NCBI GenBank assembly: GCA_025354405.1
Contig: JANXMY010000232.1
Span: forward strand, 1 to 36,810
DNA: 36,810 bases
Direction of reading: 5' to 3'
Origin: Armatimonadota bacterium
GTDB taxonomy: Bacteria > Armatimonadota > Armatimonadia > Armatimonadales > Capsulimonadaceae
Of the stretch, positions 5,119 to 24,039 are shown piece after piece (the stretch's first letter is position 1; each line of letters opens with the position of its first letter). The notes beneath the pieces are model-generated. The model made no database searches. It was not told where the DNA came from and was given only the letters and a program-made list of their open reading frames with translations. Position numbers and translations under genes: made by a program.

Positions 5119-5121
5119 CAA

Positions 5122-6207
5122 TCAGTGATTCCTCGCGGTGCGCTCATACAGTTCGGCATACCTGCGGCCTACCACCTCGGTCGAATGATGCTCTTTGTGG
5201 AAATCGTAGAAGCGGCGGCCCTCCAAGACAACCGCCTCAGGCTGTTCAAGCCAGACCGCCAGAGCGTCCGCAAGCTTGCCCGGATCACCAAATGGGATCC
5301 GGTTGGTCAAAGCGGCAGCTGGCGGGACCCCGTCTCGGGAACCGTCTACATCGGTTACCAGAGTCGGGCGGCCTCGGGCCGCCGCTTCCATAACGACAAC
5401 AGGATGCCCCTCAACTTCACTCGCCAACACCGCGAAGAGGCAGCGGTTCATCTCCGCCGGGATGTCCTTCTGAAAGCCGCGAAACTCAACAAGTTCCGTC
5501 AGCCCCAGTGCATCGACCTGATCGGCCAGAGTCTGTTTCAGCGAACCCTCGCCGATAAGAAGCAACTTCGCACGAATGCCGCGCTCGGTCAGTATTTTCC
5601 AGGCTGCGATGAGATGAACATGCGCTTTGACGGGATCGAGACGCGCGACGCAGATCACTGTGCCTCTGACATCCGGCACGCGGACATCCGGGCACTCCGG
5701 CGGGAAATCGCTGGGGTTGCCGATGATGTCGATGCGGGTGATACGCGTGGTCTTTTTTAGATTCTCCGCGACCGACGGCGAAATGGCGACTCCGGAGCGC
5801 GGACTGGTCAGCGCGAACCACGTTTCCGCCGGATAGCTGAGCTGAGCAGTATAGATCAGCCGGAACCTGCCGAAGCCCTGGAGCGGATAAAGCAGGGCGG
5901 CCAGACGCCGATGATGCACATGGACGAGTCCGATCCCTTCGCGCCTAAGCCAGCGCAGAAACGCCGCCGTCTGCTGGAACAGCCGGACCGGGTGGCTGTC
6001 CATCAGCAGGAATGGCAGCAGCCGCCCCGGCGGGATCCAGCTGATATCCTCCTCCTGGCTGCCGTGGCGGCAGTCGACAAAGTGCTGCTCAATCCCGAGC
6101 GGAGTGACGCCGTGGAAGATACGCCGGGCCGCGACCGTAACCCCGCTGCTGCGGTAGTAATTGGGATTGACGACACATACTTTCATCGGCGCGCTACCGT
6201 CATTCAT
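5122..6207 (-). CDS. Glycosyltransferase family 4
   Basis: This 361-residue GT-B enzyme starts with the N-terminal Rossmann strand MKVCVVNPNYYRSSGV. The C-terminal donor-binding half begins near residue 183 (GTVICVARLDPVKAH) and includes LLIGEGSLK, FRGFQKDI and the EX7E signature E266GHPVVVME274. It transfers a nucleotide-activated sugar to a lipid-linked acceptor at the cytoplasmic face, with a retaining mechanism typical of GT4. The first ATG (6207) overlaps the upstream stop by 4 bp and is used here. A second ATG at 6186, directly before the conserved KVCVVN strand, is equally plausible, since neither has a good Shine-Dalgarno. Specific sugar is unknown. Confidence 0.88.
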   Translation of the reverse strand: MNDGSAPMKVCVVNPNYYRSSGVTVAARRIFHGVTPLGIEQHFVDCRHGSQEEDISWIPPGRLLPFLLMDSHPVRLFQQTAAFLRWLRREGIGLVHVHHRRLAALLYPLQGFGRFRLIYTAQLSYPAETWFALTSPRSGVAISPSVAENLKKTTRITRIDIIGNPSDFPPECPDVRVPDVRGTVICVARLDPVKAHVHLIAAWKILTERGIRAKLLLIGEGSLKQTLADQVDALGLTELVEFRGFQKDIPAEMNRCLFAVLASEVEGHPVVVMEAAARGRPTLVTDVDGSRDGVPPAAALTNRIPFGDPGKLADALAVWLEQPEAVVLEGRRFYDFHKEHHSTEVVGRRYAELYERTARNH

Positions 6208-7373
6208 GGTAACTGCACCGACTCAGGCTGCAGTCCCAAGATCCGCAGCAAGCTTTCCGGGGCGAGAGCCATGTCAAACCGCTTCGCGAAACAGTCCGAG
6301 GCGGCGCGGCGCATCTCCTGATACTCTCCGGCACTCAAATCCTGCCACTTCTGGAGCAGTGAGTTTGTGCCGTCCAGATTGTCCTCCGCCACAAGCCCCG
6401 CCCCATCGGCCTGAATCTCCCGCCAGATATTGATCTTATTCGAGATCAGGACCGGCAGGCCGCAGGCCAGTGCCTCGACGACGGCGATGCCGAAGTTTTC
6501 CTGATGCGAGGGCAGGATGAACGCCTCCGCAGCGGCGAGTGCCCCCCACTTTAAGTCACCGGTCAGCATGCCGGTCCAGGTGATTCTGTCCCCCACCCCA
6601 AGCTCCAGTGCCCTTTTTTCCAATGGCTCACGAAGGCCGTCCCGGTCCGGCCCAGCCATGACCAGATGCAGGGCAGGGTCACGGGCCGCCGCCGGTGCAA
6701 AGGCTTCAATCAGCAGATCACAGCCCTTTTTCGCATGGATACGGCTGAGGAAGAGCAGCAGCCGCTTTCCGGCAATTGCCGGGAAGGCGTCGCGAAATGC
6801 GCACCGCGCGGCTTGCATATCCAAGACCGGACGCGCAATTCCAAAATGCACGACCTGCTCGACCGCCACATATCTGCGGAAGGACTCCCGCGCCAGCCGT
6901 TTTTCCTCATCGCAGGTAAAGAGTACGGCCCGCGCATCGCGCAGGACAGGGTATTCACCCCAGGGCCAATAAAGACTCTTCTTCAGGTGCTTCCAGGGAT
7001 AAGTCTTCTTAAACCACGGATCCAGCATGCCATGCGGGTAGACGAAATACGGTGTCGCTGTGCCCGCCAGTGCCCACCAGGTCGCAAAACTGCTGTACTG
7101 CCACAGGCCATGCACGAGAACGGCATCAAAGCATGGGGCATTCGCTTTTAGCCAGGGAATCAGGGCCGAATTATAGCGATACTCCGTCCGGCTCGGCCCG
7201 AGCGCATGTGTCGTCAGAGGGCCTTCCAGAACCCAGGGGGACTGCGGGGCATCGAGGCAGACGATCTCCGAGTGATGCCCCGCCTCGGCGAGTCCCAGGC
7301 TAATTTGCCGCACACTTTCAATGACGCCGCCGCTATCGGGGTCAGTGGAGGAGATAACGTTTAGAATTTTCAT
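6204..7373 (-). CDS. Glycosyltransferase family 4
   Basis: This 389-residue GT-B enzyme opens with MKILNVISSTDPDSGGVIESV, the Gly-rich acceptor-side loop. It has PYFVYPHGMLDPW near residue 115, which is common in WcaL/WfgS-type GT4s, and a donor domain with LFLSRIHAKKGCDLLIEAF (207-225), MAGPDRDG and the EX7E motif E292NFGIAVVE300. It is predicted to be cytoplasmic and to build the repeat unit. The ATG overlaps the stop of the Wzy-like gene by 4 bp (ATGA), and the 3' end overlaps the next GT4 in the same way, so three consecutive genes are coupled. Substrate is unknown. Confidence 0.9.
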   Translation of the reverse strand: MKILNVISSTDPDSGGVIESVRQISLGLAEAGHHSEIVCLDAPQSPWVLEGPLTTHALGPSRTEYRYNSALIPWLKANAPCFDAVLVHGLWQYSSFATWWALAGTATPYFVYPHGMLDPWFKKTYPWKHLKKSLYWPWGEYPVLRDARAVLFTCDEEKRLARESFRRYVAVEQVVHFGIARPVLDMQAARCAFRDAFPAIAGKRLLLFLSRIHAKKGCDLLIEAFAPAAARDPALHLVMAGPDRDGLREPLEKRALELGVGDRITWTGMLTGDLKWGALAAAEAFILPSHQENFGIAVVEALACGLPVLISNKINIWREIQADGAGLVAEDNLDGTNSLLQKWQDLSAGEYQEMRRAASDCFAKRFDMALAPESLLRILGLQPESVQLP

Positions 7374-8929
7374 AGGCCGAGCAGTCGGCCTTCCGGGGCT
7401 GCTGCCAACCCGACCGTCGCCCGGCGGCGTGTGGCCTCGCGTCGCCGCTCATTCAGCAAAGCCAGATCAACTAGCCAGTTTATACCCAGCACTACTAGGC
7501 TATAGACAATCGGACCTTGAAGGATGGCAATCAGCAGCAGAGAAAGTGCCTGCTCCGAATAGCTCAGGGTAAGTTGAGAGAGCCAGGCCAGTGCGAACAC
7601 GTTGTACCAAAGATTGGTCTCGATAACGATCCGATAGAACGAGAACAAAAAAAACGAGAAAATGAAGGGCATCAGGAATACCCCCGGCCAGCCAAAGCAG
7701 CTGAACGCATCGCAGGCGAATCCCGTTGTGATTCCAGTGGTGTTGTCATGACGTGCGACGATCCCCGGCTCACGGCGTGCGAGTGTTGTCGAGTTGTACG
7801 GCTTATCCGGCAGCAAAATACGAGGCACCACCATCGCAAATGCCGGGGTGATCGTGTCCATTTCCGTTGTCCCGCCTCGAAGCGTCGCGTCGACGATCGC
7901 ATCCGCAATCACGAGGACCGAGAACCGCTCTAAATTCGGACGGTTGCCGTCGTAGTAGAGGAAACGGTAGCGCGGGCCTTTCTGCCGAGCCTTCACCTGA
8001 TACTTCATTGGATTTTCGATCATATCCACAAGTATCCCAGAGGCTTTGCCAATATTTGCCTCCAGATTCCGTGTGCGGACAAAATTACGCGCATAAAGCG
8101 CATACGGAAAGATAATGAACGTGGCGATGTACCAACCGGCAATCACCACTCCATAGTGAATGGGCCGAAATCGGAATCCGAACGCCCAGCAAGTCACAAA
8201 GTAAATAATGAATGCTTCAATCGTGATGTGCCGAATCGCCACGATTACCCCAACGATTGAAGGCAGCAGCATAGCAACACCGTTCAAAAGGCCGAAGCTT
8301 CGTCGCCCATTAGAGGACAAAATTATGTAAGCAGTTCCAGACGCAACGGACAGCGGCGGAAGATAAGATAGACTTGCAAATATGCCATGCAGACTACCTG
8401 CACTCACCTGACCAGTATCACTGTTAATGCTGCTTTCACCGAGAATCTGAACGACAGACAAAGCGGTCGAGATGATTGCTACCCATTTGAGCCGCTGAGG
8501 GTCTACTTCCGGCAGAAACCAGGGTTTTCGGCGCTGAAATCCCAGCTTGATCGACAAGGCTCCGGCCAAAGCGATCCCAGCCATCGTGAGGCAGTAGATT
8601 CCGATCGTCTCCAGCGGCCACATCAGGGGCTTGTCCGCTGGCTGCCAGAAAAAAACTTTTGCCACCTGGGCAAAAAGCACGTTCTGAACAGCCAGGATGA
8701 AAACGCAGAGACCCATCAGCGACCGCAGCCCACCCGCAAATCGGACCGCGAAATAGGACAGCACACCGAAGATGAACACTAGCAGTGCGAACATCTGCGT
8801 CGTCCCGCTCATGAGCTGGAGCATGAACAGGAGTACCGCCGCTGCGAGCCAGTAGAGGGGGCGCCAATTATGCATTGACGCTTCCGTGAAGGGCCGCCGG
8901 ATAGCTTGTCGTGCCAAGATATTACTCAT
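7370..8929 (-). CDS. Wzy-like oligosaccharide repeat-unit polymerase (membrane protein)
   Basis: This 519-residue protein has about 11-12 hydrophobic segments. The first cluster lies between residues 24 and 70 and another at the C-terminus (about 415-490). A long polar stretch of about residues 290-400 contains many Arg, Lys and Tyr residues (KARQKGPRYRFLYYDGNR) and resembles the large periplasmic loop of O-antigen/EPS polymerases. Primary sequence identity in Wzy proteins is low, so the call rests on topology, length and position between glycosyltransferases in a locus that has a flippase but no other polymerase candidate. It is probably an inner-membrane enzyme that joins undecaprenyl-linked repeat units. 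An internal Met19 is an alternative start. Confidence 0.65.
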   Translation of the reverse strand: MSNILARQAIRRPFTEASMHNWRPLYWLAAAVLLFMLQLMSGTTQMFALLVFIFGVLSYFAVRFAGGLRSLMGLCVFILAVQNVLFAQVAKVFFWQPADKPLMWPLETIGIYCLTMAGIALAGALSIKLGFQRRKPWFLPEVDPQRLKWVAIISTALSVVQILGESSINSDTGQVSAGSLHGIFASLSYLPPLSVASGTAYIILSSNGRRSFGLLNGVAMLLPSIVGVIVAIRHITIEAFIIYFVTCWAFGFRFRPIHYGVVIAGWYIATFIIFPYALYARNFVRTRNLEANIGKASGILVDMIENPMKYQVKARQKGPRYRFLYYDGNRPNLERFSVLVIADAIVDATLRGGTTEMDTITPAFAMVVPRILLPDKPYNSTTLARREPGIVARHDNTTGITTGFACDAFSCFGWPGVFLMPFIFSFFLFSFYRIVIETNLWYNVFALAWLSQLTLSYSEQALSLLLIAILQGPIVYSLVVLGINWLVDLALLNERRREATRRRATVGLAAAPEGRLLGL

Positions 8930-8938
8930 AGTGATTTC

Positions 8939-9946
8939 TCAGAGGGTTCGGACAGGTCTCAATTTTTTGTAGGTCAGCGGTTTGATAAACCTGAACCCAA
9001 AACGCATAGCTAGATTCTTAATGCCCGTTATCTTCGCTGCTTGCGACGGCTCATCCGGCACAGCATACTTGCCGAGCATTTCTTCCAGTTCCTTCGCCTC
9101 TTGTGCCCTCCCGTGAATTTTGGCCCAGCAAATCACAGATTGAATGGTCGCGGCGGAGTGGCGGTAGGCGGAAGCCCGCAGATTCCGAGCCTCTCCGGCA
9201 TACTGCGGGGGGACGCGAGAAAGAACATCATCGATGACCCCAAAGTACTCACGCTCGGTCTGGTGGGCATTGATCTGGCGCACCATGTCCTCCGACACAT
9301 TACTGCCGTGCCTGCGATGCGCTGCTAGAGGCGCGTCGATGTAGGCGACATAGCCGAGCAGACAAACGCGTAGACTCAGGTACCAGTCGTGGGCCGAAAG
9401 CAGCGGCAAAGTCGTAAATCCCCCAGCCCTCACGACGGCGTCGCGGCGAAAGAGGATCGTCGGCGATTTGATGTGGTACTGAACGAGGATACGCTGAAAC
9501 TCGTCCCATCCAGTGCCGACATAATCACTCTTTTTCGGCCACCCGCCCCAGGTTCCATCGTCCTGGTCCAGGTAAAGCCCACGGCAATAGGCCAGTACGA
9601 CCTGTGGGTTTTGGTCCAGCACGGCACACATGCGCTCCAGAAACGTGTCGGCGCAGTAGTCATCGCTATCCGTACGGTACAAAAACTCCCCACGCGCCAG
9701 ATCAATACCTCTCTGGTTGGTCTGTGCAATGTGGCAGTTGGTATCGTTTTGCAGTACCGTGACACGGGTGTCATGCCGGGTCAGCTCACGCGCATATTCA
9801 AAGCTGCCATCCGGGGAACAGTCGTCGATGATAATCCATTCCCAGTCCTGATACGATTGGCTGAGAATCGAATCGACCCGCCGCCGCAAAAACGGTTTAT
9901 GGTTGTACATTGCCGTAACAATGGAAACTTTTGGTATGTTACTCAT
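8939..9946 (-). CDS. Glycosyltransferase family 2
   Basis: This 335-residue GT-A enzyme has KVSIVTAMYNHKPFLRR at residues 6-22, WIIIDDCSPDGS at 37-48 (nucleotide-binding Asp pair) and the metal-binding R91TDSDDY. The domain then continues with VLAYC and SPTILFRRDAVVRAGGF, so a complete GT2 catalytic domain ends near residue 230 and is followed by a helical tail with no recognised domain. It is probably a cytoplasmic inverting transferase acting on the lipid-linked intermediate. It lies 9 bp upstream of the polymerase gene. Interestingly both start with MSNI, but nothing else is shared. Substrate is unknown. Confidence 0.88.
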   Translation of the reverse strand: MSNIPKVSIVTAMYNHKPFLRRRVDSILSQSYQDWEWIIIDDCSPDGSFEYARELTRHDTRVTVLQNDTNCHIAQTNQRGIDLARGEFLYRTDSDDYCADTFLERMCAVLDQNPQVVLAYCRGLYLDQDDGTWGGWPKKSDYVGTGWDEFQRILVQYHIKSPTILFRRDAVVRAGGFTTLPLLSAHDWYLSLRVCLLGYVAYIDAPLAAHRRHGSNVSEDMVRQINAHQTEREYFGVIDDVLSRVPPQYAGEARNLRASAYRHSAATIQSVICWAKIHGRAQEAKELEEMLGKYAVPDEPSQAAKITGIKNLAMRFGFRFIKPLTYKKLRPVRTL

Positions 9947-9956
9947 ATCAGTCGTT

Positions 9957-11171
9957 TTAGCTGACAGCCGTCAAAGGCCTTTTATTCTTCAAACGTAAAC
10001 TCGGTGCTTCGATGAACTTCCAACTTAGGAAGGCCAGTCCCGCAGTGACGATCAAGGCCGAGAAAAACAACGCTGCGATTGAGAGCTGAGTACTCAAGTA
10101 GTGTACCAGAAGCTGCTGGACTGGGAAAGCATACAAATACAAACCATAAGAAAGATCGTGCTTTGTACCCACCCTCGAAAATGGGCTGGGCAAAAAGGCG
10201 ATGTACAAAAGCAGGTAGCTTCCCGCTAGCGGCAGGACATAGGCAATAACAGGCAAAACATAAATCGACGCGAGAAGGGCTGCCAGTGCGACGATTGCAA
10301 GTGGAAGGCGAAGTGGAATAATCCTGCGATAAAGATAAAGGCACATACCGCTGATAAAGTACAGATACATACGGGGACCAAGTCCATGGCTAGTGCCTAT
10401 CTTCGTCAAAATCCGCCCGGCAAACGAAAATTCATTGAGTTGCAGCAAACCCGGCATTGCCGTCAGAGATCCGCTGCAGTAAAGGAAGTATACAAGGTAG
10501 GCCCCGGCGAACAACATGGCTGGTAAGGCCCGAAGAATGGCGCTTGAAATAAACCGAGAAGCTCGAAGCGAAGCCCAGCCTAGCAATACAACTAACAGGT
10601 AACACTGAAACTCGAAAGGGATGGTCCACAACGAACCGTTCATCGCGCCGGAAACGGGCATGTACCTGAAAACGGGCGGCACGGTCAGGTCCAGTAAAAT
10701 TAGGTGCGGGAAAAATGTAAGCCCTTCAGTCCCCAACTGATACCAATAAGCAGATATATTGTCCGCCGCCAGAGGACCGACAATCAACGCGCAAAACAAA
10801 GACACGATTATGAACCCTGGATAAATACGCAAAATGCGTTTCTTCAAATAGTCCCAGACACCGAAACTCCGCTGCCAGCTCATTGTCACTAAGTAGCCAC
10901 TGATGACAAAAAAGCCATAAACCGCCAGATGACCGAGGTCAATTGGATGATCCATCGGAAGATCTTTTTGATCGCGTAAAAAATGCGCGGTTGGATCGAG
11001 GACTTCCAAACCATACTTGATCGGGTAACAATGTGAAAAGATCACGGAAATTGCCAGCACCACTCGCATGACATTAAAGTTGTTTTGCGGAAAAGTCGGT
11101 TTCTGTATCAGAGCATCTGCATTCTTCTGAAATCTGGCAATTGTCGGCGGCTCTCGTTCTACTGGAATCAT
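9957..11171 (-). CDS. Acyltransferase family 3 (OafA/YrhL-like) integral membrane protein
   Basis: This 404-residue protein has about ten membrane segments. Family signatures include NFNVMRVVLAISVIFSHCYP near residue 33 (with the catalytic-type His of PF01757), GFFVISGYLV, LKKRILRIYPGF, the late DLSYGLYLYAFPVQQLL and WKFIEAPSLRLK close to the C-terminus. OafA-like proteins O-acetylate or otherwise acylate surface polysaccharide at the cytoplasmic membrane using acyl-CoA. With the WcaF-type enzyme this gives the locus two distinct acetylation systems. The ATG is preceded by AAAGGA about 10 nt upstream. It lies 15 bp from the flippase gene. Confidence 0.88.
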   Translation of the reverse strand: MIPVEREPPTIARFQKNADALIQKPTFPQNNFNVMRVVLAISVIFSHCYPIKYGLEVLDPTAHFLRDQKDLPMDHPIDLGHLAVYGFFVISGYLVTMSWQRSFGVWDYLKKRILRIYPGFIIVSLFCALIVGPLAADNISAYWYQLGTEGLTFFPHLILLDLTVPPVFRYMPVSGAMNGSLWTIPFEFQCYLLVVLLGWASLRASRFISSAILRALPAMLFAGAYLVYFLYCSGSLTAMPGLLQLNEFSFAGRILTKIGTSHGLGPRMYLYFISGMCLYLYRRIIPLRLPLAIVALAALLASIYVLPVIAYVLPLAGSYLLLYIAFLPSPFSRVGTKHDLSYGLYLYAFPVQQLLVHYLSTQLSIAALFFSALIVTAGLAFLSWKFIEAPSLRLKNKRPLTAVS

Positions 11172-11186: not shown

Positions 11187-12728
11187 CTAAGCCGCAGGCT
11201 GCACGCGCGGCCCTCTCAGACGAAGGCGCACTTGTGCCAGCTTTTGACGCAGCAAATTTCGCTCCCCGGGGCTGATCCAGACAAATCGCGCGGCCAGGCA
11301 GGAGGCTGCCAGCGTTGCCGCTCCCACTTCCGCCCATTGCAGCAGAGGGGGGCCCCAGACGACGTGCTGGGCCAGCCACCCCGCTCCCAGAGCGCAGGAG
11401 AAGATAGCCGCGAGACCCAGCCAGAGGCGGGCGGCATACGGCGCGTAGGTTTCTCCCAGCACCGTGCAGGTGTCCTTGACCACGAAATGATAGCAGGCCA
11501 GCAGTTCGCCGATGATCAAGCTGAGCGGGATCGCATTCAGCCCGAGCACCGGGGCGAGCATCAGCATGCTCCCGAGGGAAGCCACGCCGGAAGCCAGATA
11601 CGACCAGGCCTGATTATGGTGACGGTTGATCGCCGCCGTGACATTGGTATTGGCGATCCACGGAGCCTGCAAAACGATGTAGATCAGGAGCAGGCGCAGA
11701 AACCAGAGGTTCACATGGACTTTGGGCATCCAGACACTGAGGACGGAAAGGCCTTGAAACCAGAGCGCGGCGGCAATGGCGACGCAGAGTGTTGCAGAAG
11801 AGGTAACGACGAGGCGATTCAGCAGCCGCAGCCGGACGATGTCGCCCTGGGCGTACAGAATGGTCATATCCGGCCAGGCCGTGGTCCCGATAATCCGTAC
11901 CGTCTGTATCGCCATACTGGTCAGGGTACGGGCGGTGGTGAAAACGGCAGCGGCGACGACTCCGAAGAGTGCCGAAGTGACGGTGACGCTTCCCTGCTGC
12001 ATCAGCGAGAACGAGACCGCGATCACCGCGAACATCAGGCTGGGCCGCAGCAGCTGACGCATCACGGTTTTATCGGAATGGGAAACACCCGGCAGGAGCT
12101 GCGGATAACGGCGGCGGATGTCCCAGAGAACGCAGACGACGACAGGAATCATCGGGACCAGCTGCAGCAGGGCTAAAGTCCGCATCCCGCAGCCAGCCTC
12201 CAGACCGATTACTGTCATCAGCAGCACACCTGCGGATCGCCAGTTGTTGATCCATTTGGAGCGGGCCGGATCGCCGACCGTGGTGTAGAAGTTCCCCAGC
12301 AGACCGACCGGCATCATCCACAGTACCTGCAACGCCAGGAGCCAGAGGATCCAGGGAGCGTCCGGCACGGCGGAACGTTTGACACCGAACCAGGAATTGA
12401 CCGGCAGCAGCCAGAGGCCCAGTCCTAGGAGCAGGCTCGCCCCAAAAGCCAGGATTAAATAAAACACCGTGGCGGAGTGCTGACACCGCCGATAATCTTC
12501 CTGGTCGTCGCGAGTATGGCTTGCAAGCAGCCGGTTACCGACCGCGGAATTCATACCGAGATCCAAGTTACCGAGGGTGGAAGACATCGTTGAAAGAACA
12601 ATCCAGGTTCCGTAAACGGCAAGCGACCAGTGCCTGAGGAACAAGGGGGCAAGCAGAATCTGACCGAACAGATTCAGCATCTGACCGCCCGTAATCGCGA
12701 AGAAATGTTTGACTAAACGTAGGCTCAC
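11187..12728 (-). CDS. Wzx-type polysaccharide flippase (MOP superfamily)
   Basis: This polytopic membrane protein has about 12-14 helices and 513 residues with the chosen start. It has the N-terminal LRLVKHFFAITGGQMLNLFGQ and LAPLFLRHW, as in Wzx/RfbX-type repeat-unit exporters. It should move undecaprenyl-pyrophosphate-linked repeat units to the periplasmic side. An ATG at 12788 would extend it by 20 residues into the upstream gene with a non-hydrophobic peptide. Instead I take the GTG at 12728, which overlaps the upstream TGA by 4 bp (GTGA), as at other junctions of this operon. The C-terminal tail is basic. It is the only flippase in the window. Confidence 0.85.
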   Translation of the reverse strand: MSLRLVKHFFAITGGQMLNLFGQILLAPLFLRHWSLAVYGTWIVLSTMSSTLGNLDLGMNSAVGNRLLASHTRDDQEDYRRCQHSATVFYLILAFGASLLLGLGLWLLPVNSWFGVKRSAVPDAPWILWLLALQVLWMMPVGLLGNFYTTVGDPARSKWINNWRSAGVLLMTVIGLEAGCGMRTLALLQLVPMIPVVVCVLWDIRRRYPQLLPGVSHSDKTVMRQLLRPSLMFAVIAVSFSLMQQGSVTVTSALFGVVAAAVFTTARTLTSMAIQTVRIIGTTAWPDMTILYAQGDIVRLRLLNRLVVTSSATLCVAIAAALWFQGLSVLSVWMPKVHVNLWFLRLLLIYIVLQAPWIANTNVTAAINRHHNQAWSYLASGVASLGSMLMLAPVLGLNAIPLSLIIGELLACYHFVVKDTCTVLGETYAPYAARLWLGLAAIFSCALGAGWLAQHVVWGPPLLQWAEVGAATLAASCLAARFVWISPGERNLLRQKLAQVRLRLRGPRVQPAA

Positions 12729-13882
12729 GCAGTATGTCCTGACAGTTCCTGAAGCACGGAAACCATTTTGTCCCCGTAGTCGTTCCATCCGCCCAGGGAC
12801 GCGACTCGCGCCAGGCTTGCCCGGCTCAACCGGTCGCGTAATGGTGGGTCCTGAGCGAGTTGTTCCAGGTGCTTCAAAATCGCAGCAGAGTCGCGAATCG
12901 GGATCAGGAACCCCTCACAGCCGTCGTCGATCAGATGCTCTCCGCCGCTGTTCGTGGAAGCGATCACCGGGCAGCCGCAGGCCATCGCCTCGCCCATGAC
13001 CATCCCGAAACCGTCGTTCAAGCTGGGAAACACCATGACATGGCTTCGGCTCATAATTTCTTTCAGGCGGCTATTTGGCAGCGGTCCGGTTAATTCGACA
13101 TTCGCCAGCGATTTCCCCTGCAGGTAGCGGGCCATTTCGGGGAGGACGGCTCCAACGAGGGTTAGCCTCTTTTTCGGATGCTGCAATTTCTGGAACGCGT
13201 TCAAAAGATAGGGTATTCCCTTGAGAAACGAAACGGCTCCGACAAAAAGAACTTCGAACGTTTCCGGGTCAGGCTGTGAGACCGGTTCAAAGCTGCTAAG
13301 ATTGGCCCCATACGGAACCACTCTGATCTTTTCCGGCGATACGCCCTGCTCCGTAAAAGTACGGAGCGCAAACCGCGAGGGCAGCGTGATGACATCCGCC
13401 TGAGCGTATTCCGCTTCCTCTCGCGCGATATCCTGGGGATCAACGCCCGGAAAGACTTCGTCCCAGCGGGCAAACTCTTCCGGGAGCATTTCGCTCCAGA
13501 ACCGAATGTGAGACGCGCCGCGATCACAGATGTACCGTCCGCCACGTTTCTGCGAAAGCTTACCGGCGAAGAGGCCCGAGCCGGAGTGGGCGAGAAAAAC
13601 ATCGCACTCCGGCAGATTTCGCGCGACATACGCATCGAAGCTCTCGCGATGCCAGCGGCTCAGCCCCCAGGTCTGTCGGGCGGTCAGTCCGAACCTCTGC
13701 ACTCCGCGCTCAATCAGGTTCACCCAAGGAAACGTCTGTATCTTATCCATCGGGATCCCCTCTTCCCGCAGCTTCTGGACGGGATAGGAGGAGAAAATGG
13801 ATTCCAATACGCTATGCCGATACAGCTGACGCGCCAGATGAAAGTGATGAAACTTGCCGGAGACGGATTGGACGATTTTCAT
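12725..13882 (-). CDS. Glycosyltransferase family 4
   Basis: This 385-residue GT-B enzyme starts MKIVQSVSGKFHHFHLARQL. The hinge is marked by TLPSRFALRTFTEQGVSPEKIRVVPYGA, and the donor domain by VLFVGAVSFLKGIPYLL, LTLVGAVLPE and FPSLNDGFGMVMGEAM around residue 290, in which the first Glu of the EX7E motif is replaced by Asp. The IRVVPYGANLSSFEP stretch is typical of GT4. It is predicted to be cytoplasmic and to add a sugar to the lipid-linked repeat unit. It sits between the foldase gene (28 bp upstream) and the flippase gene (4-bp overlap). Confidence 0.88.
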   Translation of the reverse strand: MKIVQSVSGKFHHFHLARQLYRHSVLESIFSSYPVQKLREEGIPMDKIQTFPWVNLIERGVQRFGLTARQTWGLSRWHRESFDAYVARNLPECDVFLAHSGSGLFAGKLSQKRGGRYICDRGASHIRFWSEMLPEEFARWDEVFPGVDPQDIAREEAEYAQADVITLPSRFALRTFTEQGVSPEKIRVVPYGANLSSFEPVSQPDPETFEVLFVGAVSFLKGIPYLLNAFQKLQHPKKRLTLVGAVLPEMARYLQGKSLANVELTGPLPNSRLKEIMSRSHVMVFPSLNDGFGMVMGEAMACGCPVIASTNSGGEHLIDDGCEGFLIPIRDSAAILKHLEQLAQDPPLRDRLSRASLARVASLGGWNDYGDKMVSVLQELSGHTA

Positions 13883-13910: not shown

Positions 13911-14942
13911 CTAATGCGCCGCCATGACGGGCTGGTACTGGGTCCAGAACGCCTGCAAAATGGATTTATGCTGAAAATCCTGGAACTCAGCCTGCACAGC
14001 CGCGCCTTTCAGTCGGGTGCCCTTGGCGATCTTTTCGCCCAAAATGCAATCGTCTTTGACTTCCGAAAACGGCTTGGTCAAGCTCAGCTTTTTGTCCTCG
14101 CATCGAAAGAGCCACAAGCCGTTGTGGAATGAGACCGGGCCGTACGTATCGCCAATTTTCAGTGCAAACAGGGCCTGTTCCAGAGCTGGCGTCGGACTGA
14201 GCGGAGATCGCCCGCGCTGCAAAGGCTGAAGCAGACCGCCTTTGTTCTTACTGCCCGCATCGAGGCTGTACTGCGCCGCGACTTGCTCGAAGGGCGTGTG
14301 TACGGCTAGCTCCGACTGCACTTTTGCCATAGCGGCCGGAGTCGCAACTCCGATCGCACGGACAAAAAGGGTCTCGGGCTGATAGAACAGGGCCCGAAGG
14401 TTGCGCGGGCTGGTCTCATTCTCGTAATATTTTTTGACCTCAGCGTCGGTGACAGTCACGCCCTGAGTCAGCACGGCGGCCTGTGCCAGCTTGACACGTA
14501 AGTTGTCTTTGTACTGGGATTCAGTCTGACCACTCGCTGCCAGTTCCCGGGAAAAGTTCGGGTTGGCATGCATCTTTTGAAATCTGTCTTCGACATCCGC
14601 ATCGGTCGGAGCGGCACCTTTTTTTACGGCAAATTGCAGCTGAAGCTGCTCCTGGACGATCTGATGCAGCGTCGCCGGTCCGGCCACAGCCTGCAGACGG
14701 GCAAAGAGCTGATCGGAGGTGATCTTGGAGCCGTTGACCGCGGCGATGTTCTGAGCGGATTCATGGCGATGCCGTGTCGCGAGGACACCGCCGCCAAACC
14801 CGACCACCAGCGCCAGCCCGGACAGCAGCCAGGGTGCGAGGCGTTTCATCGGAGAGGCATCGGGCAGGTCGGCTCGAAGAGCACGCTCTCGGGCAGTCAA
14901 GTTCTTATCTTTGCTGAACTTGGGCAGAGCGGGAATTGACAT
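13911..14942 (-). CDS. PpiC/SurA-type peptidyl-prolyl isomerase (EpsD-like foldase)
   Basis: This 343-residue protein has a basic cytoplasmic N-terminus and one membrane segment at about residues 35-53 (LAPWLLSGLALVVGFGGGVLA), then a periplasmic part. After it come a SurA_N-like helical region (NGSKITSDQLFARLQ, then the VTDAEVKKYYE linker) and a parvulin-like domain at about 190-290 (FEQVAAQYSLD, KNKGGLLQPLQRG, LEQALFALKIGDTYGPVSFHNGLWLFR). EPS loci with exosortases often contain an EpsD-family member of this group, which fits the neighbouring epsI and exosortase genes. Its client is unknown; outer-membrane or export components of the EPS machine are candidates. Isomerase activity cannot be judged from sequence alone. 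Confidence 0.8.
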   Translation of the reverse strand: MSIPALPKFSKDKNLTARERALRADLPDASPMKRLAPWLLSGLALVVGFGGGVLATRHRHESAQNIAAVNGSKITSDQLFARLQAVAGPATLHQIVQEQLQLQFAVKKGAAPTDADVEDRFQKMHANPNFSRELAASGQTESQYKDNLRVKLAQAAVLTQGVTVTDAEVKKYYENETSPRNLRALFYQPETLFVRAIGVATPAAMAKVQSELAVHTPFEQVAAQYSLDAGSKNKGGLLQPLQRGRSPLSPTPALEQALFALKIGDTYGPVSFHNGLWLFRCEDKKLSLTKPFSEVKDDCILGEKIAKGTRLKGAAVQAEFQDFQHKSILQAFWTQYQPVMAAH

Positions 14943-14968: not shown

Positions 14969-15631
14969 TTAGAATTTAAACGGAGCGGCATGACTTTGTG
15001 ACTTGCTGCTGACGGTGGCCTTGAGTGCTCGGAGCGGCTCATGCAAGGCCGTTGTGAAATCGGTGAGCGCTTTACGGCCTTGCGGGTCATCGGAGGTGAT
15101 CAGACGAACAAACAAAGACATATTCTTATAGCGATTTAAATAATGCCCACGTACAGCCGCGATTTTGCGCACAAATTCATTGGGTGGCGGTGCCGGAGGG
15201 AAATAGCCGGTCAGCCAATAGAGTACAGACTGTCGCTGCCCGTCCAGCTCCGCGCTCATGCGGGTTCCAGGGTCCCCGTCTATCTGAATTGCCTGGATAT
15301 CGCTTAGCTTCCATCCCTGCGAGGGGAAACACGCCTGCGGACTGTGCATGTCTTCGTCTTCTGTGGCCGTCAGCAGCATCAGGTCTACCTGCTCGCCAGT
15401 CGGACTCGTGTATACGCGTTCAACGATCTTGGCGGTCGGCAGGGCACGGGCGATATCAATATCGACATCGCGCAGCGGTCCGCCCGACCAAACACCGATC
15501 TTGGAGGGGAAGCTTTCCACCGGCAAGCGATGGGGCTTCGGTACATCCAGCTGACCTAAGCCGTAATTCGCGCCTGTCGCCGCCAGAACAAGGATGCAGG
15601 CGATTAGAGGGAGAAACGAAGATTTCGACAT
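14969..15631 (-). CDS. epsI: EpsI family exosortase-associated protein
   Basis: This 220-residue protein has one N-terminal membrane segment or uncleaved signal (residues 6-25). It has the EpsI (DUF3485) hallmarks KIGVWSGGPL, LMLLTATEDEDMHSPQACFP followed by SQGWKL (HSP..CFP..GW), and VLYWLTGYFPPAP. EpsI domains occur either fused to an exosortase or, as here, encoded next to it. Their biochemical role is not established. AAGGAG lies at ideal distance from the ATG even though this start is inside the exosortase gene (28-bp overlap), so the two products are probably made in a fixed ratio. Confidence 0.88.
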   Translation of the reverse strand: MSKSSFLPLIACILVLAATGANYGLGQLDVPKPHRLPVESFPSKIGVWSGGPLRDVDIDIARALPTAKIVERVYTSPTGEQVDLMLLTATEDEDMHSPQACFPSQGWKLSDIQAIQIDGDPGTRMSAELDGQRQSVLYWLTGYFPPAPPPNEFVRKIAAVRGHYLNRYKNMSLFVRLITSDDPQGRKALTDFTTALHEPLRALKATVSSKSQSHAAPFKF

Positions 15632-16485
15632 CCCAGGCTCCTTCCAAGCAGCACAAGCAGTCCAAACGCAAGCAAAATCGCCAGATATTCCGCCATGTCA
15701 TGCGCCGCATGCAGTGCGTGGAGGCCGCCGCTTGTGGCTGCAGCGATCAGTCCCGCAATGCGCAGGACATTCGCAATCAAAGCGATTGGCAGGACGCAGA
15801 TCAGCAAAATCAACCGGACCCGATTACTCTCGGTAAACAGATATCCATAAAGCAGCGTAAAGGCACTTAGGCTGAGAAACTTATGAAACCCGCTGCAAGC
15901 CGCCGCCACTTCCAGCACTGCCCCAGGCACCTGGATCACGTTGCCGTTACGCACCAGTGTAAAGCCGAGCAGGTCCATAAGACCCGCCGCTCCGACGGTA
16001 CTGGCATTTTGGATCCAGACCGTCATGCCGCTCAGCAGCGAATGCGGCAGCGGATTTGCCAGCAGCGAGAACACGATTGCAAAACGGACAATCCGCAGCA
16101 TCTGCGGCCCGAACAGCATCAAAACGCCGCCTGCCAGTGTCAGAGCGAGCGACCACATGCCGATATATTTAATCTGCAGCAGATAACTTGCCGACTGTAA
16201 AAGCACGCCCGCCACGAGCAGCGGCAGTCCCCACACACTCGGCTGCACCGGCGCACTTCGGATGTCGTCCCGGCGCAGCCAGAGCAGGAACGCGCACAGC
16301 GGAAAGATAAACACGCCATGCGCGTAGTTATCATTGATCATCCATTGCTGCCCGGCATCAATCAGCGTCGGGGTGTACAGTGCCAGGACGCCAAGGGCGA
16401 ACAGCAGTCCAGGCCACCTTGCCGAAGGTGCGGGTAAGGTGCCGATCACTGACACTGCCCTCTTTTTTTCTGCTCCGATAATCAT
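15604..16485 (-). CDS. xrt: Exosortase (EpsH-like transpeptidase)
   Basis: This 293-residue integral membrane protein has about eight helices. The early NYAHGVFIFPLCAFLLWLRR is typical of exosortases. The proposed catalytic residues are all present: C197 in LEVAAACSGFH, R242 in IANVLRIAGL and H262 in ALHAAHDMAEY. Exosortases are thought to cleave and process PEP-CTERM-type sorting signals at the membrane, and EPS-locus members are needed for polymer export or linkage. No PEP-CTERM protein is encoded in this window. It lies 8 bp downstream of the Wza-like gene and overlaps epsI. The subtype (XrtA, XrtB and so on) cannot be fixed here. Confidence 0.9.
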   Translation of the reverse strand: MIIGAEKKRAVSVIGTLPAPSARWPGLLFALGVLALYTPTLIDAGQQWMINDNYAHGVFIFPLCAFLLWLRRDDIRSAPVQPSVWGLPLLVAGVLLQSASYLLQIKYIGMWSLALTLAGGVLMLFGPQMLRIVRFAIVFSLLANPLPHSLLSGMTVWIQNASTVGAAGLMDLLGFTLVRNGNVIQVPGAVLEVAAACSGFHKFLSLSAFTLLYGYLFTESNRVRLILLICVLPIALIANVLRIAGLIAAATSGGLHALHAAHDMAEYLAILLAFGLLVLLGRSLGCRNLRFSL

Positions 16486-16493
16486 AACTTTTT

Positions 16494-17717
16494 TTAGCGG
16501 TTATTCAGGACTCTCGCCGTGTAGGCGGCTGAGCCGACACCGGAAATCAGCGACAAGAGATCGCTGATATTCGCTGTATGGTGCTTGTCCGGAATATACA
16601 TTGTGTCGCCATTGGTGACAAACGGATTGCCCTCATACTTGCCCTTAAGCAGAAAGTCGTTCAGGTTTACCCGGGCCATCTGCTCATCATTCTCTGCATC
16701 TTTCTTCGGATTTTTCTCTGAATCCTTTTTCGGGTCCTTCTTCATCGTGTTAATGTTCATCACATTGATCTTGCCTAAATCAGCCTGCGGGAGAGGGCCG
16801 CCCACTCCGCCCAAAGCGTCGACAATTCGGTCACCTGGCTTGAAGTAATAAAAGCCTGGACGGGCGACGTCACCAAAGACATAGACCTTGTTGTGCAGCT
16901 CAGGAATATTAATACTATCGTAGGGCGACATTTTGACATTCGCCGACATATCGCCGTGCAGAAGCATCGCATCCAGGTCGATTTTCGACTCAGCGCCGTT
17001 GTGGGTGAATGTCGCCGCTTTTAAGTCCGCGACTTCCGGAAGTGCACCGCCGCAGGCATTGATCGCTTCCAGAATAGTCAAGTGATCGTTATAGGTCAGT
17101 GACCCAGGCATTTTGACCTGACCGACGACGCTCACTTTGCCTCTTTGCTCGGGCACATAAATGACATCTCCGGGGGCAAGCTCGCTGTTCACCGCAGGAT
17201 CGGACACTTTGGTGTCCGGGTAGCTGAGATCCAGAAGCTGAACTGTGCCGTCGGCATGGGTCAGCGTAGAATGCACGGAATCACCACCGGGCAAAGAGCC
17301 GCCAGCTTCGGCCAGCGCATCGATCAGGTGCATTCCGGGCCGGAAGGGCAGTGTGCCGGGATGTGTCAGCCAGCCGCTGAAGACAACGTTCTGCACGTGC
17401 TTCTGCATCAGCGAAACACTCACGGCCGGATTGATGACATATTTACGCCAGCGCTTTGTCAGCAGACGTGCGGTCTGGGCCGTCGTCATCCCGGAGACAG
17501 AGACGTTGTCCAGCAAAGGGAGCGCCACTGTGCCGTCCGGGGCGACGACGGCCTGAGCTACCGACAGATTGGTAAAATTGACGACAGTTATGCTCACCAC
17601 ATCCGATGGGGCGAGCTGATAGCTTGCCGTCACTGCGACCGGCACCCCAGTCTGCTGGGCGTGAGCTGGGATCAGAGTGGCCGACACGAGCAGGGAAAGT
17701 GCAATGGAGAGTTTCAT
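16494..17717 (-). CDS. Wza-like polysaccharide export protein with three SLBB domains
   Basis: This 407-residue protein has a Sec signal peptide (residues 1-20, cleavage near AHA-QQ) but no lipobox Cys, unlike E. coli Wza. Then follow a Poly_export domain (YQLAPSDVVSITV to PAVSVSLMQ, about 33-125) and three SLBB-type repeats starting near VVFSGWLTHPGTLPF, VSVVGQVKMPGSLTY and VYVFGDVARPGFYYF. A Lys/Asp/Glu-rich segment of about 25 residues (KKDPKKDSEKNPKKD and flanks) is inserted late in the third repeat region. It should form the periplasmic/outer-membrane exit channel, working with the Wzc-like protein encoded 11 bp upstream. AAGGA precedes the ATG at good distance. Confidence 0.88.
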   Translation of the reverse strand: MKLSIALSLLVSATLIPAHAQQTGVPVAVTASYQLAPSDVVSITVVNFTNLSVAQAVVAPDGTVALPLLDNVSVSGMTTAQTARLLTKRWRKYVINPAVSVSLMQKHVQNVVFSGWLTHPGTLPFRPGMHLIDALAEAGGSLPGGDSVHSTLTHADGTVQLLDLSYPDTKVSDPAVNSELAPGDVIYVPEQRGKVSVVGQVKMPGSLTYNDHLTILEAINACGGALPEVADLKAATFTHNGAESKIDLDAMLLHGDMSANVKMSPYDSINIPELHNKVYVFGDVARPGFYYFKPGDRIVDALGGVGGPLPQADLGKINVMNINTMKKDPKKDSEKNPKKDAENDEQMARVNLNDFLLKGKYEGNPFVTNGDTMYIPDKHHTANISDLLSLISGVGSAAYTARVLNNR

Positions 17718-17728
17718 AGGATTTTCCT

Positions 17729-20044
17729 TTACGATGCCGAGGCCGCCGTTTCCGGCATTTCTCCATCAGTTTCCAGAGACTTGTGAGCTGCCGAGTTTGC
17801 GTAGAGCAGGTCTTGTGGCCGGTTGACGACTAGGGTTTGATCAAATTTGGCAGGAAGAGCATGACGCTCGACCGGACTGGAAAGAGCAGCATAAGAAAAG
17901 CGTGAGCGGAACACACGCTGCTGGGAACGTGTGAGACAGTTCGCCAGAACTGTCACTTTCTTCCCGGTCGCGTGGAGGGCCAATGAGGCATTATGGAGAG
18001 TGTCCATGTCTCCAAAGTTCATGCGCACTACCTGCATCAGGCAGTCGGCATGGGCGGTCAGCAGCAGCGTATCCGCGACGGAGGAGCAATCCGGGGCATC
18101 GATAATCAGGACGTCGGCCTTGACACGGAGACTGTCCATGATTTCGGCCAGCCGCGGGTGCGACAGCAGCACGGTCGGGTTCTGCGTGCTCTCTCCGGCG
18201 GGAAGAACGGTGAGGCCGTCGATCTCCGTGGTCGTGAGCGCTTCGTCCAGAGGGAGCGTCCCTGCCAGTACGTCGGCAAGGCCACCGGTTTTCCCGTCCG
18301 GGAAGAGCGAGTTTTTCGCCGGGCGTCGCAGATTAGCATCCACAAGAATGACCGTTTTGCCGGCTGCGACCATGCTGCGGGCAAGCTGAGCCGCCGCCAC
18401 AGATTTGCCTTCGCCGGGAAGGGCACTGGTAATTAAAATCGTCTGCTGTGGGAACTCCTCGTGCTCGAGCGTGTGGTGGTGGAGATACGCCAAGTTCACT
18501 CGTGCCAGGCTGAACGCCTCCTCAAACTCGGGAAGCTGCCGTCCGTTCGCCTGGGCCGTCATGTAGGCGCGGGGTGTCCGAGGAAGCATGCCGATGATCG
18601 GTCCGGCAATCAGTGCACGCATCTCATCCAGAGTACGTATCCGCTGGTCAAGCTGCTCCAGCAGAAGCACCATGCAGAGGGAAAGCAGGAGGCCCAGCGC
18701 GAGGCCCAGCGCCATATTTGTTTTCAGATTTGGCTTGTAGGGCAGCACTGGGACAAATGCGCTCTGGATCAGCTGGACATTGCCGGAAACCCGGTCCCGG
18801 TCCAAACGCACTGCATTGAGATTGGCCTGAAGCTGGGTATAGAGGTTTGTCTGGAGCTGGGTATTCCGGTCCAGCTGGGCATACTGCATTTGAATATCCG
18901 GCAGGCCTGAAACCTTGTTTTGCAGAGCCTGACCTGCCTGCACAGCGGCATTCAGCCGGGCCTGGGTCAATGCCAGATTGACCCGTGCATCATTTGTTTG
19001 TGAGACAAGTCCGCTTCGGACTTCGAGGGAAGGGGCATCGTTGTTGCCGGCGGCACGCAGGGCGCGCGCGAGCTGAATCTGGACATTCGCGATTTTGGCG
19101 TCTAGCTCCGGCAGGATGCCAGGATAATCCTTGGTGTAGCGCAGCTCTGCATCTTTACGCTCTGATTGCAGTTCACCTAGTTTCGCCTGGAGACTAATTA
19201 CCAGCGAGCCGTCTGGAACACCGTCAGCAGAGTGAACGGCGGCATTGGCCGCTTTCAGATGCGCCTCCAGAACTAGGAGGCGTGCCTGCTGGCCAACCAG
19301 ATCCTGTTTGAGGAGGGAGACGTTTGAATCGGACTGCTCGGCGGTCGCAACCGCCGCAATCTGCTCCCCGGGGACATTTGCCAGGTGATGCGACTGCTTG
19401 AAATTTCTTTCTTGACGCTCCGCCTCCTGAAGCTGAGTGTTGGCTTTCGCGGCTCGAAATCGGAGACTTTCTTCGGCACTACGAATGTCCCGCTGGGCGT
19501 TGTCTTTTTTCCAGAGAACGTAGGCCTGGGCGACGGCATTTGCAAGTGTTTGCGCCTGAGTCCGGTCTGTCCCGTCCGCAGTCACGACAAGCAGTGTCGA
19601 GTCGAGAGGATTCGTGACCTTGACCGCGTCCTGGATGTCTTCCATCGTGTAACTAGTATCAGTCGTGCCGCCGCGTACGAGGGAGTCATTCTTTAACTGG
19701 TTAAGAGTTCGCTCGACCATGCCGGCACTCTGGATCATGGCAACCTGGGTTTCCATGGTCTCGGTTGAAGGTGCAGCAGAATTGGTGTTCGATGTTGAAG
19801 TGCTGGAAAAGATCGCTTGCGGAACGAGCTGAAGCTGCGCCTCCGCACGCCAGACTTTCGGCGTGTTAAGGGTCCAGAGATAAGCCCCGCCCAGACAGAT
19901 TAGAATAATCGGAAGGACAACCCATTTTCGACGGCGAAGCATCGAAGAAAAGTCCTTCAAGTCGATTTCCGGGCTGCTGGACGGTGTTCCTGGATAGGGT
20001 CCCGGTTGATAGCTAGGCTGTGGTCCGCTTAATAATTCATTCAT
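17729..20044 (-). CDS. Wzc-like polysaccharide co-polymerase / BY-kinase-type ATPase
   Basis: This 771-residue protein has a Wzz domain with TM1 at about 41-58, a long coiled-coil periplasmic part (about 160-425), a Pro-containing region before TM2 (about 444-463), and a cytoplasmic ParA/BY-kinase domain. The latter has Walker A A541LPGEGKS548, Walker A' VILVDANLRRP (565-575) and Walker B DVLIIDAPD (644-652). It should control chain length and couple assembly to export through the Wza-like channel. The C-terminal tail lacks the usual Tyr cluster of Wzc/BY-kinases, with only isolated Tyr residues in SYAAL and LLYANS. Autophosphorylation may therefore be absent or use other residues. It is the second gene of the operon. 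Confidence 0.9.
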   Translation of the reverse strand: MNELLSGPQPSYQPGPYPGTPSSSPEIDLKDFSSMLRRRKWVVLPIILICLGGAYLWTLNTPKVWRAEAQLQLVPQAIFSSTSTSNTNSAAPSTETMETQVAMIQSAGMVERTLNQLKNDSLVRGGTTDTSYTMEDIQDAVKVTNPLDSTLLVVTADGTDRTQAQTLANAVAQAYVLWKKDNAQRDIRSAEESLRFRAAKANTQLQEAERQERNFKQSHHLANVPGEQIAAVATAEQSDSNVSLLKQDLVGQQARLLVLEAHLKAANAAVHSADGVPDGSLVISLQAKLGELQSERKDAELRYTKDYPGILPELDAKIANVQIQLARALRAAGNNDAPSLEVRSGLVSQTNDARVNLALTQARLNAAVQAGQALQNKVSGLPDIQMQYAQLDRNTQLQTNLYTQLQANLNAVRLDRDRVSGNVQLIQSAFVPVLPYKPNLKTNMALGLALGLLLSLCMVLLLEQLDQRIRTLDEMRALIAGPIIGMLPRTPRAYMTAQANGRQLPEFEEAFSLARVNLAYLHHHTLEHEEFPQQTILITSALPGEGKSVAAAQLARSMVAAGKTVILVDANLRRPAKNSLFPDGKTGGLADVLAGTLPLDEALTTTEIDGLTVLPAGESTQNPTVLLSHPRLAEIMDSLRVKADVLIIDAPDCSSVADTLLLTAHADCLMQVVRMNFGDMDTLHNASLALHATGKKVTVLANCLTRSQQRVFRSRFSYAALSSPVERHALPAKFDQTLVVNRPQDLLYANSAAHKSLETDGEMPETAASAS

Positions 20045-20132: not shown

Positions 20133-21410
20133 TTACCCTTTTCCAGATAACGTTTCCAGCTCTACTGACAATGATCGATCCGACTGCCCCCCCTGTGCCG
20201 CTTCCATCAGCGTGGAATGGTACTGTATGGCAAGGTGCCCGGTCGAATATTTTTCCAGCAGTATCGAGCGCGCATTCTGACCAAGGCGATCGACTTCCCC
20301 CGGGTCATCGGCCAGAGTACGAAGAGTCCTTACCATATCATCGGCAGAATCCTGTGCAATATGAACGCCGCACTGGGCTTCATCGATCACACGGGCGACT
20401 TCAGAGACTGGAGACACCGCTGCAATAGTTGGGCGGCCGGAAGCCAAAATACTATAAAACTTGCTGGGGACGCACAGCCCTTCCATGCCCGGTTCCAATG
20501 TGACCAGCGACACATCCGCAGTTGCGAGAAGATCAGCATAATCCTCCTTGGAGACAAAGGGGAACATACGAACACTGCCGATTTTTTCAGTGGCGATCCG
20601 CTGTGCGATATGCTCTTTCTGGGCACCGTCCCCCACCAGTACGAATGAAATGGTGCTCTTGCTCTGTGCCAGGATTGTCGCCGCATCTAAGACCGTGTCG
20701 AAATTATGATAGCGCCCAAAATTCCCAGAGTACAGGACGACAAAGCCGGTAATCCCATGCTTTTCCCGGAAACGACTCTGCCGGCTGCAGGGAGCGATCT
20801 CCTCCGGGTCCGAGCCGATTGGGATCACTTCGATTTTCCCCAGCGGCAAAGAATAGGCTTCGCTCAGACGCTCCTGCATACAGCGGCCTAGAACCACGAC
20901 TTTCGCGGCGGAGTGCAGCCAGCGTTTCTGGGAGGCACGAAAGATTCGGGCCGCCGGATGCGATTCTGACATCATCTTCATGGTGACAGAGCGGTCAGGC
21001 TCCAAATCGTAGACAATGTAGACGAACGGCGTTCCTTTGAGCCACTTAAGGAACTGAGCACACATCGCCACCATGGGCGGAGCCGTTCCAATCAGCACGG
21101 TATCGTATTTACCGAGACGCATAAGTTTGGTCAGGGCAAATAGGCAGAAAAGAAGATTCGCACCGAGGCGTAGTACTGGAGAAAGGCCATTTGGCCGGGG
21201 GGTTGCGAGACGAAAAATACGTACGCCGTTCCACTCTTCATACGCAGGCAGTGAGGCATTCTGCCGGCGGTACAGATTTTTGCTGGTAACCACATCGATT
21301 TCAATGTCGCTGAATGTCTCCCGCAGAGAGCGAACCAGGTCGGACAGCACCGTCCCCGTTCCGCCCGCATTGTCCGGGTAGAAATATTCATTGATTATGC
21401 AGATATGCAT
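20133..21410 (-). CDS. WcaI/WbuB-type glycosyltransferase family 4
   Basis: This GT-B enzyme of about 425 residues starts MHICIINEYFYPDNAGGTGT. Other features include RTDIE-type acceptor-domain helices, FVYIVYDLEPDRSV near residue 150, a donor domain with VVLYSGNFGRYHNFDTV, LVGDGAQKEHI and, around residue 310, EGLCVPSKFYSILASGRP, the variant signature of WcaI/WbuB enzymes that replaces the usual EX7E. It probably adds a sugar at the cytoplasmic face. The codons read TTG ATG; I use the ATG at 21410, though an AGGA is better spaced for the TTG at 21413. It is the first gene of the EPS operon, about 180 nt downstream of the predicted sigma-54 start point and 88 bp ahead of the Wzc-like gene. Confidence 0.88.
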   Translation of the reverse strand: MHICIINEYFYPDNAGGTGTVLSDLVRSLRETFSDIEIDVVTSKNLYRRQNASLPAYEEWNGVRIFRLATPRPNGLSPVLRLGANLLFCLFALTKLMRLGKYDTVLIGTAPPMVAMCAQFLKWLKGTPFVYIVYDLEPDRSVTMKMMSESHPAARIFRASQKRWLHSAAKVVVLGRCMQERLSEAYSLPLGKIEVIPIGSDPEEIAPCSRQSRFREKHGITGFVVLYSGNFGRYHNFDTVLDAATILAQSKSTISFVLVGDGAQKEHIAQRIATEKIGSVRMFPFVSKEDYADLLATADVSLVTLEPGMEGLCVPSKFYSILASGRPTIAAVSPVSEVARVIDEAQCGVHIAQDSADDMVRTLRTLADDPGEVDRLGQNARSILLEKYSTGHLAIQYHSTLMEAAQGGQSDRSLSVELETLSGKG

Positions 21411-21601
21411 CAAGATAAAGTTCCTGCGGATTAAGCAGAATTCCTACTTGTCTCTGGTACGGGGAAACGACCCGGGTGGCTTGGAGTATCCAGCAGAAGA
21501 AAGCTCCCGATGAATTTTATCAGACATGAAATCGCCTTTCTTGTTCTCATCCTGCTTATTTGCTATGGGAGACGAAAAAAGTCAGCACTGCAAAGTCATA
21601 G

Positions 21602-21618
21602 TGCAAGAATCATGCCAA
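21602..21618 (-). promoter_or_regulatory. Sigma-54 (RpoN) promoter of the EPS operon
   Basis: The minus strand reads TTGGCATGATTCTTGCA. Compared with the consensus YTGGCACG-N4-TTGCW it has one mismatch (C to T), with the exact 4-nt gap. The -24 GG is at 21616-21615 and the -12 GC at 21604-21603. Transcription would start near 21591, about 180 nt before the first ATG. It faces the operon and lies outside any gene. Sigma-54 promoters need an enhancer-binding activator, and about 250 bp of gene-free DNA lies upstream to hold its sites. No activator gene is in the window. Confidence 0.7.
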
Positions 21619-21955: not shown

Positions 21956-21985
21956 CAGACAAGTCTGCCGGAAAGGCGGTATAAT
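21956..21985 (+). promoter_or_regulatory. Sigma-70 promoter of gmd-fcl
   Basis: A perfect TATAAT (21980-21985) is preceded 18 nt upstream by CAGACA (21956-21961), which matches TTGACA at four of six positions. The start point would be near 21992, giving a leader of about 63 nt before gmd. A dyad immediately follows the -10. Confidence 0.55.

Positions 21986-22054: not shown

Positions 22055-24039
<1,985 letters not shown>

Follow-up and report, generated by a model that had tools for sequence, protein, structure and literature searches.

The window, the whole 36.8-kb stretch of DNA analysed here, is one entire contig of a 3.6-Mb, 96% complete MAG from the Armatimonadota. Sixteen minus-strand open reading frames occupy 21410 to 2978 in succession, with no more than 88 nt between neighbours (Table 1), and terminator-like signals inside this series occur at chance level; the 16-gene, 18-kb operon described in the initial annotation therefore holds as a directional run. 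Its domain content is that of an EPS/exosortase system, and the combination of an exosortase, an EpsI-family protein and EPS genes identifies it as an exosortase (EpsH) locus. The exosortase scored below the cut-off for every named Xrt subtype and is 93% identical to that of a same-genus genome in the public genome set. A pectate-lyase/beta-helix protein gene (380-2794, minus strand) lies 183 nt behind the methyltransferase gene and may either close the EPS run or form a unit of its own. The SLH protein noted previously is present at the domain level (29805-32012).

Table 1 Coordinates of features in the window and of related genes elsewhere
Feature	Position	Strand	Basis
Sigma-54 -24/-12 promoter element TGGCATGATTCTTGCA	21617..21602	-	Motif, PWM score, genome-wide enrichment
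Predicted transcription start	21591..21591	-	~12 nt downstream of GC; from sigma-54 promoter geometry
Predicted 5′ leader, ~180 nt	21411..21590	-	
GT4-type glycosyltransferase, first gene of run	20133..21410	-	
Wzz/GNVR chain-length protein fused to BY-kinase-like AAA domain	17729..20044	-	
Polysaccharide export protein (Poly_export, SLBB)	16494..17717	-	
Exosortase	15604..16485	-	PF09721 177.7 bits; TIGR02602 above cut-off
EpsI-family exosortase-associated protein	14969..15631	-	DUF3485, TIGR02914 above cut-off
PpiC-type peptidyl-prolyl isomerase	13911..14942	-	
GT4 glycosyltransferase	12725..13882	-	
Wzx-like flippase	11187..12788	-	Weak NCBIfam match
Acyltransferase 3	9957..11171	-	
GT2 glycosyltransferase	8939..9946	-	
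Possible Wzy-like repeat-unit polymerase	7370..8929	-	Weak TIGR04370 match, below cut-off
GT4 glycosyltransferase	6204..7373	-	
GT4 glycosyltransferase	5122..6207	-	
Hexapeptide-repeat acetyltransferase	4531..5121	-	
GT2 glycosyltransferase	3671..4534	-	
Methyltransferase, last gene of tight run	2978..3652	-	
Sigma-70-like match CAGACA-18-TATAAT	21956..21985	+	Consensus match only; such counts at chance level
Sigma-54 activator, response regulator (receiver) + AAA+	L048:10085-11407	-	
Divergent RpoN-like proteins	G049:C211, G022:C29, G032:C176, G060:C163, G045:C62		
Divergent RpoN-like proteins, further	G036:C2, G058:C181, G042:C17, G028:C77, G054:C25		

The -24/-12 element upstream of the gene run

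The minus-strand reading of 21618..21602, TTGGCATGATTCTTGCA, contains the element TGGCATGATTCTTGCA, with GG at 21616-21615 and GC at 21604-21603. Compared with TGGCACGN4TTGCW, the element shows a single departure (T for C) and keeps the exact GG-GC spacing of 10 nt, and its -12 GC lies 193 nt upstream of the first-gene ATG at 21410. The initial annotation had described one mismatch from the RpoN consensus with exact spacing, in an intergenic and correctly oriented position about 190 nt before the first gene, and each of these points was borne out. Using a PWM trained on 26 other sites of the same genome, with the window site left out, we obtained a score of 25.5 of 28 bits for the element and 10.4 for the runner-up on either strand of the window; no position in 60 Markov-1 copies of the window reached the score of the element. 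We regard this 16-base element as very probably a genuine sigma-54 promoter.

At sigma-54 promoters, transcription starts about 12 nt downstream of the -12 GC, and this geometry gives the predicted start and leader listed in Table 1. With 193 nt between the GC and the operon, this leader exceeds those of most other sites in the genome (mostly about 45-110 nt). The 3′ portion of the leader, beginning near 21488, can be aligned at 82% with DNA of G001, the same-genus genome. An RNA element in the leader was rejected, as 21411..21590 gave no Rfam match.

Sigma-54, its activator and its sites in the genome

The genome encodes one rpoN (TIGR02395, 302 bits against a cut-off of 277) and one bona fide sigma-54 activator (PF00158, E of about 2e-72 to 7.9e-72), whereas five other PF00158 matches, at 2e-8 or weaker, are probably other AAA+ proteins. 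Because the MAG is 96% complete, a second activator could be missing; other members of the family that have an activator carry one each. The initial annotation had anticipated rpoN together with an activator bearing AAA+ and HTH domains. Both rpoN and the AAA+ activator are present, but the HTH is missing: the chain stops 32 residues past GNVREL, and Pfam gives RR, Sigma54_activat and AAA lid domains only. The protein thus has the type Ic composition, that is, a receiver and AAA+ without an HTH. Its sigma-54 contact loop reads NAFTGA, and this type of change (G1 to N) occurs in functional sigma-54 activators (PMC3162934). Shortening by an assembly error or frameshift was rejected, because the same short end is found in 33 genomes, including the single-contig G002 and G039. 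The gene before that of the activator codes for a kinase of 1238 residues that carries four GAF domains together with PAS, HisKA and HATPase; hydropathy shows no convincing TM segment in this kinase.

Genome-wide, the strict motif TGGCAYGN4TTGCW has 11 matches against 0 in a reversed-pattern control, and the relaxed motif TGGCAYGN5TGCW has 33 against 6. Judged by eye, about 27 of the relaxed matches precede genes and about six lie inside genes, the latter being the number that the reversed control predicts. The roughly 27 sites lead EPS, exosortase and PEP-CTERM genes, which is the clustering that had been foreseen. Their first genes encode a polysaccharide export protein, a UDP-sugar dehydrogenase, a second Wzz-BY kinase, a WcaJ/WbaP-type sugar transferase, an acetyltransferase (followed by a glycosyltransferase), a GH44 protein, a PqqD-like protein (followed by an HprK-like gene), a SARP/AfsR-like regulator, PilM and PEP-CTERM proteins whose tails read VPE[PTA], as well as a cold-shock protein (cspA) and CsrA, both identified from sequence alone. 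With a site before csrA, a post-transcriptional regulator would share the same switch. The sites preceding csrA and the cold-shock protein gene (L066:1344-1359, minus strand, and L069:5555-5570, plus strand) are near-perfect (TGGCATGATTTGTGCA).

Two or three of the exosortase operons are led by sigma-54 sites. At the second exosortase locus there are two good sites and a PEP-CTERM gene. At the third (L164:5241-5256, minus strand, G000:C106), a well-placed near-consensus site reads GA in place of the -12 GC and may be dead or weakened. By tail profile the genome has about 28 PEP-CTERM genes, of which about eight have a site directly upstream, and one further gene sits inside the exosortase-2 locus; sigma-54 control of every PEP-CTERM gene was rejected on this count. 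The eight site-led genes give a rough hypergeometric value of about 4e-11 (3000 genes assumed, 27 sites), which is optimistic because the tail profile was built from site-led genes. An unbiased Pfam model finds seven PEP-CTERM genes, two with a direct site (hypergeometric 0.002).

Two strong divergent sites 1.8 kb apart (L060:6435, minus strand, and L060:8259, plus strand; G000:C17) lead only small unrecognised open reading frames, so that the RNAs made from them might code for small proteins or for none. Elsewhere, a sigma-54-led secreted protein (L052:14656-15618) continues into an extended Gly-Thr-Thr repeat where the contig stops.

Distribution across the Armatimonadota

In the same-genus genome G001, the site is kept before the same gene (AAGTTGGCATGAATATTGCACT against AAGTTGGCATGATTCTTGCACT), with largely diverged DNA flanking it in the gap. 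This local match was read by eye; a MAFFT alignment of the promoter gap in three genomes gave no useful information, since the gaps are of unequal length. A site also precedes the same operon in G004 and, more weakly, in G003, and sites precede Wzz- or export-led EPS genes in genomes of other families (G052, G039, G048 and G059). No site was found at the orthologous operon of G025, at this position in the rpoN-less G008 and G029, or at many other exosortase loci of the phylum. Among 61 genomes, an excess of relaxed-motif matches over the control was confined to those that have rpoN together with an HTH-less activator (594 versus 268); the counts were 72 versus 82 in rpoN-less genomes and 166 versus 185 in rpoN genomes with only other activators.

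Armatimonadota genomes mostly have one or two sigma-54 activators each. Of 57 typable activators, 33 end 25-48 residues after GNVREL, a tail too short for the usual HTH, and we therefore class them as HTH-less. Kinase motifs lie just before the activator in eight families (f1, f2, f5, f7, f9, f14, f18 and f24). In a tree of AAA+ domains, 29 of the 33 HTH-less activators belong to a single well-supported group of 36, together with seven HTH-bearing proteins, and this mixture indicates that the HTH was lost (or regained) more than once. Short HTH-less activators outside the main group are found at G036:C40 and G060:C120 (family f6) and in G027 and G041, the last two with no kinase motifs found adjoining them; these are possibly independent losses.

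Each of the 33 genomes that encode an HTH-less activator also has an exosortase match, and such an activator is absent from the 13 genomes that lack an exosortase (Fisher 6e-6, not corrected for relatedness). At the family level, both occur together in 11 of 25 families, and the activator occurs alone in none of the 25.

Mode of activation and relation to known systems

We propose, with a probability of about 0.8, that a working-type sigma-54 promoter drives the 16-gene run as part of a cell-exterior regulon of about 27 promoters under one two-component system that acts independently of enhancers. The regulon would span EPS synthesis and export, exosortases, a subset of PEP-CTERM proteins, the type IV pilus and csrA/cspA. 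RNA polymerase with sigma-54 would wait in closed form at the -24/-12 elements; a histidine kinase of the GAF/PAS type, soluble for the most part, would read a cytosolic signal and phosphorylate the response regulator-AAA+ activator, the ring of which would reach the holoenzyme from solution and open all sites together. The functional pairing of kinase and regulator, cotranscription, enhancer-free activation, the start site and the signal are elements that we infer. One signal may thereby activate the entire set simultaneously.

Activators without a DNA-binding domain have precedents in FlgR (PMC3162934) and CtcC (PMC7482065), which are presumed to act from solution; FlgR has been described as its genome's sole activator. 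Such type Ic proteins have been put at about 4% of all sigma-54 activators (Francke et al. 2011, PMC3162934). The Armatimonadota activator resembles Helicobacter and Campylobacter FlgR and Chlamydia CtcC in combining a receiver with AAA+ and lacking an HTH, but its contact loop is NAFTGA, whereas that of Campylobacter FlgR is GAFTGA with G5 changed to D. FlgR targets flagella and CtcC late developmental genes, whereas the Armatimonadota set consists of EPS, exosortase, PEP-CTERM and pilus genes, and an activator of this kind occurs widely within one phylum.

No shared upstream enhancer was found: a k-mer test of the 150 nt upstream of 28 sites gave no recurrent k-mer above the null and, as a positive control, recovered the promoter itself. 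Given the missing DNA-binding domain and the lack of a shared upstream motif, the activator most likely works enhancer-free from solution, in the manner presumed for FlgR and CtcC; all promoters would then fire together, with selectivity coming from the -24/-12 element alone. An alternative that we consider unlikely, although it is the strongest, keeps the promoter sigma-54-dependent and has the HTH-less activator targeted by a separate, unrecognised DNA-binding partner. Most characterised sigma-54 activators do act from enhancers, the motif test was simple, and it could have missed a weak or variable enhancer motif. Nevertheless, no k-mer recurred in the 150 nt upstream of the sites, and both FlgR and CtcC work as activators without a DNA-binding domain of their own (PMC3162934, PMC7482065).

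In Proteobacteria, a sigma-54 PEP-CTERM/EpsH regulon operates with PrsK, PrsR and PrsT (Haft et al. 2006, PMC1569441), and RpoN-dependent pepA has been established experimentally in Aquincola (PMC9850573). These cases lend some plausibility to a PrsK/PrsR-type promoter acquired with the exosortase module, at which a PrsR-like Fis-family regulator would bind an enhancer. The systems are alike in the -24/-12 sites before PEP-CTERM genes, in a two-component NtrC-family activator with an adjacent kinase, and in the tie to EPS and exosortase. They differ in the activator, which in the Armatimonadota has no Fis/HTH domain and reaches only 374.3 bits against the PrsR model TIGR02915 (cut-off 502.6), and in the kinase, which is GAF/PAS-rich, unlike the transmembrane PrsK; PrsK is absent from the best 25 of 94 NCBIfam families matching it. 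In the PrsK/PrsR regulon an enhancer, Motif 1, lies some 63 nt ahead of the promoter. Our general k-mer test of 28 upstream regions showed nothing recurrent above the null. The Armatimonadota sites, in another phylum, also lead the EPS/exosortase operons themselves. On the model scores, the missing HTH and kinase match, and the missing enhancer signal, we rejected both PrsK/PrsR as the system operating here and its transfer; an acquisition of that kind together with the exosortase module is improbable. The further suggestion that the whole regulated module had been transferred fares no better: the HTH-less pair and its promoters are spread over Armatimonadota families, the GC content of the operon (0.56) is near that of the remaining window, and such deep conservation within the phylum fits an old lineage-specific version better than a recent proteobacterial transfer.

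Slightly less probable still is that an ordinary sigma-70 promoter mainly drives the operon, with the sigma-54 site secondary or inactive. Sigma-54 sites can be occupied yet silent. However, the region holds about as many sigma-70-like matches as chance predicts (12 versus 9.4 expected), with none on the minus strand between 21410 and 22055, and the sigma-54 site persists in a relative with diverged flanks; a sigma-70 promoter for the operon was rejected for want of an above-chance candidate on the correct strand of the gap. The plus-strand match in Table 1 faces the divergent GDP-mannose dehydratase gene (22055-23071), which suggests, from position and consensus, that this gene has its own promoter. 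A mere chance look-alike has a negligible likelihood and was rejected, because although consensus matches at single sites are often fortuitous, none of the 60 random windows matches the score of TGGCATGATTCTTGCA, the genome-wide strict and relaxed counts exceed their controls and the site is kept in relatives.

Sigma-54 has been described as a controller of the bacterial exterior that regulates genes for EPS, the cell surface and motility (Francke et al. 2011, PMC3162934), and the proposed Armatimonadota regulon follows this theme for EPS and surface genes; PEP-CTERM and exosortase are nowhere mentioned in that study (PMC3162934). Among the papers searched, we found none joining Armatimonadota with RpoN or sigma-54, and one co-mention, in passing, of Armatimonadetes with exosortase. 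Control in the Armatimonadota appears to reach the same targets as the proteobacterial regulon by a different and simpler route: in this distant phylum, through a solitary activator unable to bind DNA alone. The best-known natural activators lacking a DNA-binding domain, FlgR and CtcC, serve motility and chlamydial development, and a third natural group, found in many environmental genomes, would show sigma-54 regulation with selectivity resting on the core promoter. We give about even odds to a broader reading, namely that in much of the Armatimonadota sigma-54 is a dedicated cell-exterior factor, with one HTH-less two-component input opening every promoter enhancer-free and exosortases, EPS, some PEP-CTERM proteins, pili and csrA forming one programme. 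About 27 sites and one activator would offer a simple genomic handle for predicting matrix-building expression in little-studied bacteria.

Some Armatimonadota also encode divergent RpoN-like proteins (Table 1) that match only part of the sigma-54 DNA-binding domain; this class may represent another type of sigma-54. HTH-bearing activators occur in several of the genomes concerned, and G054 has the two genes within 3 kb of each other.
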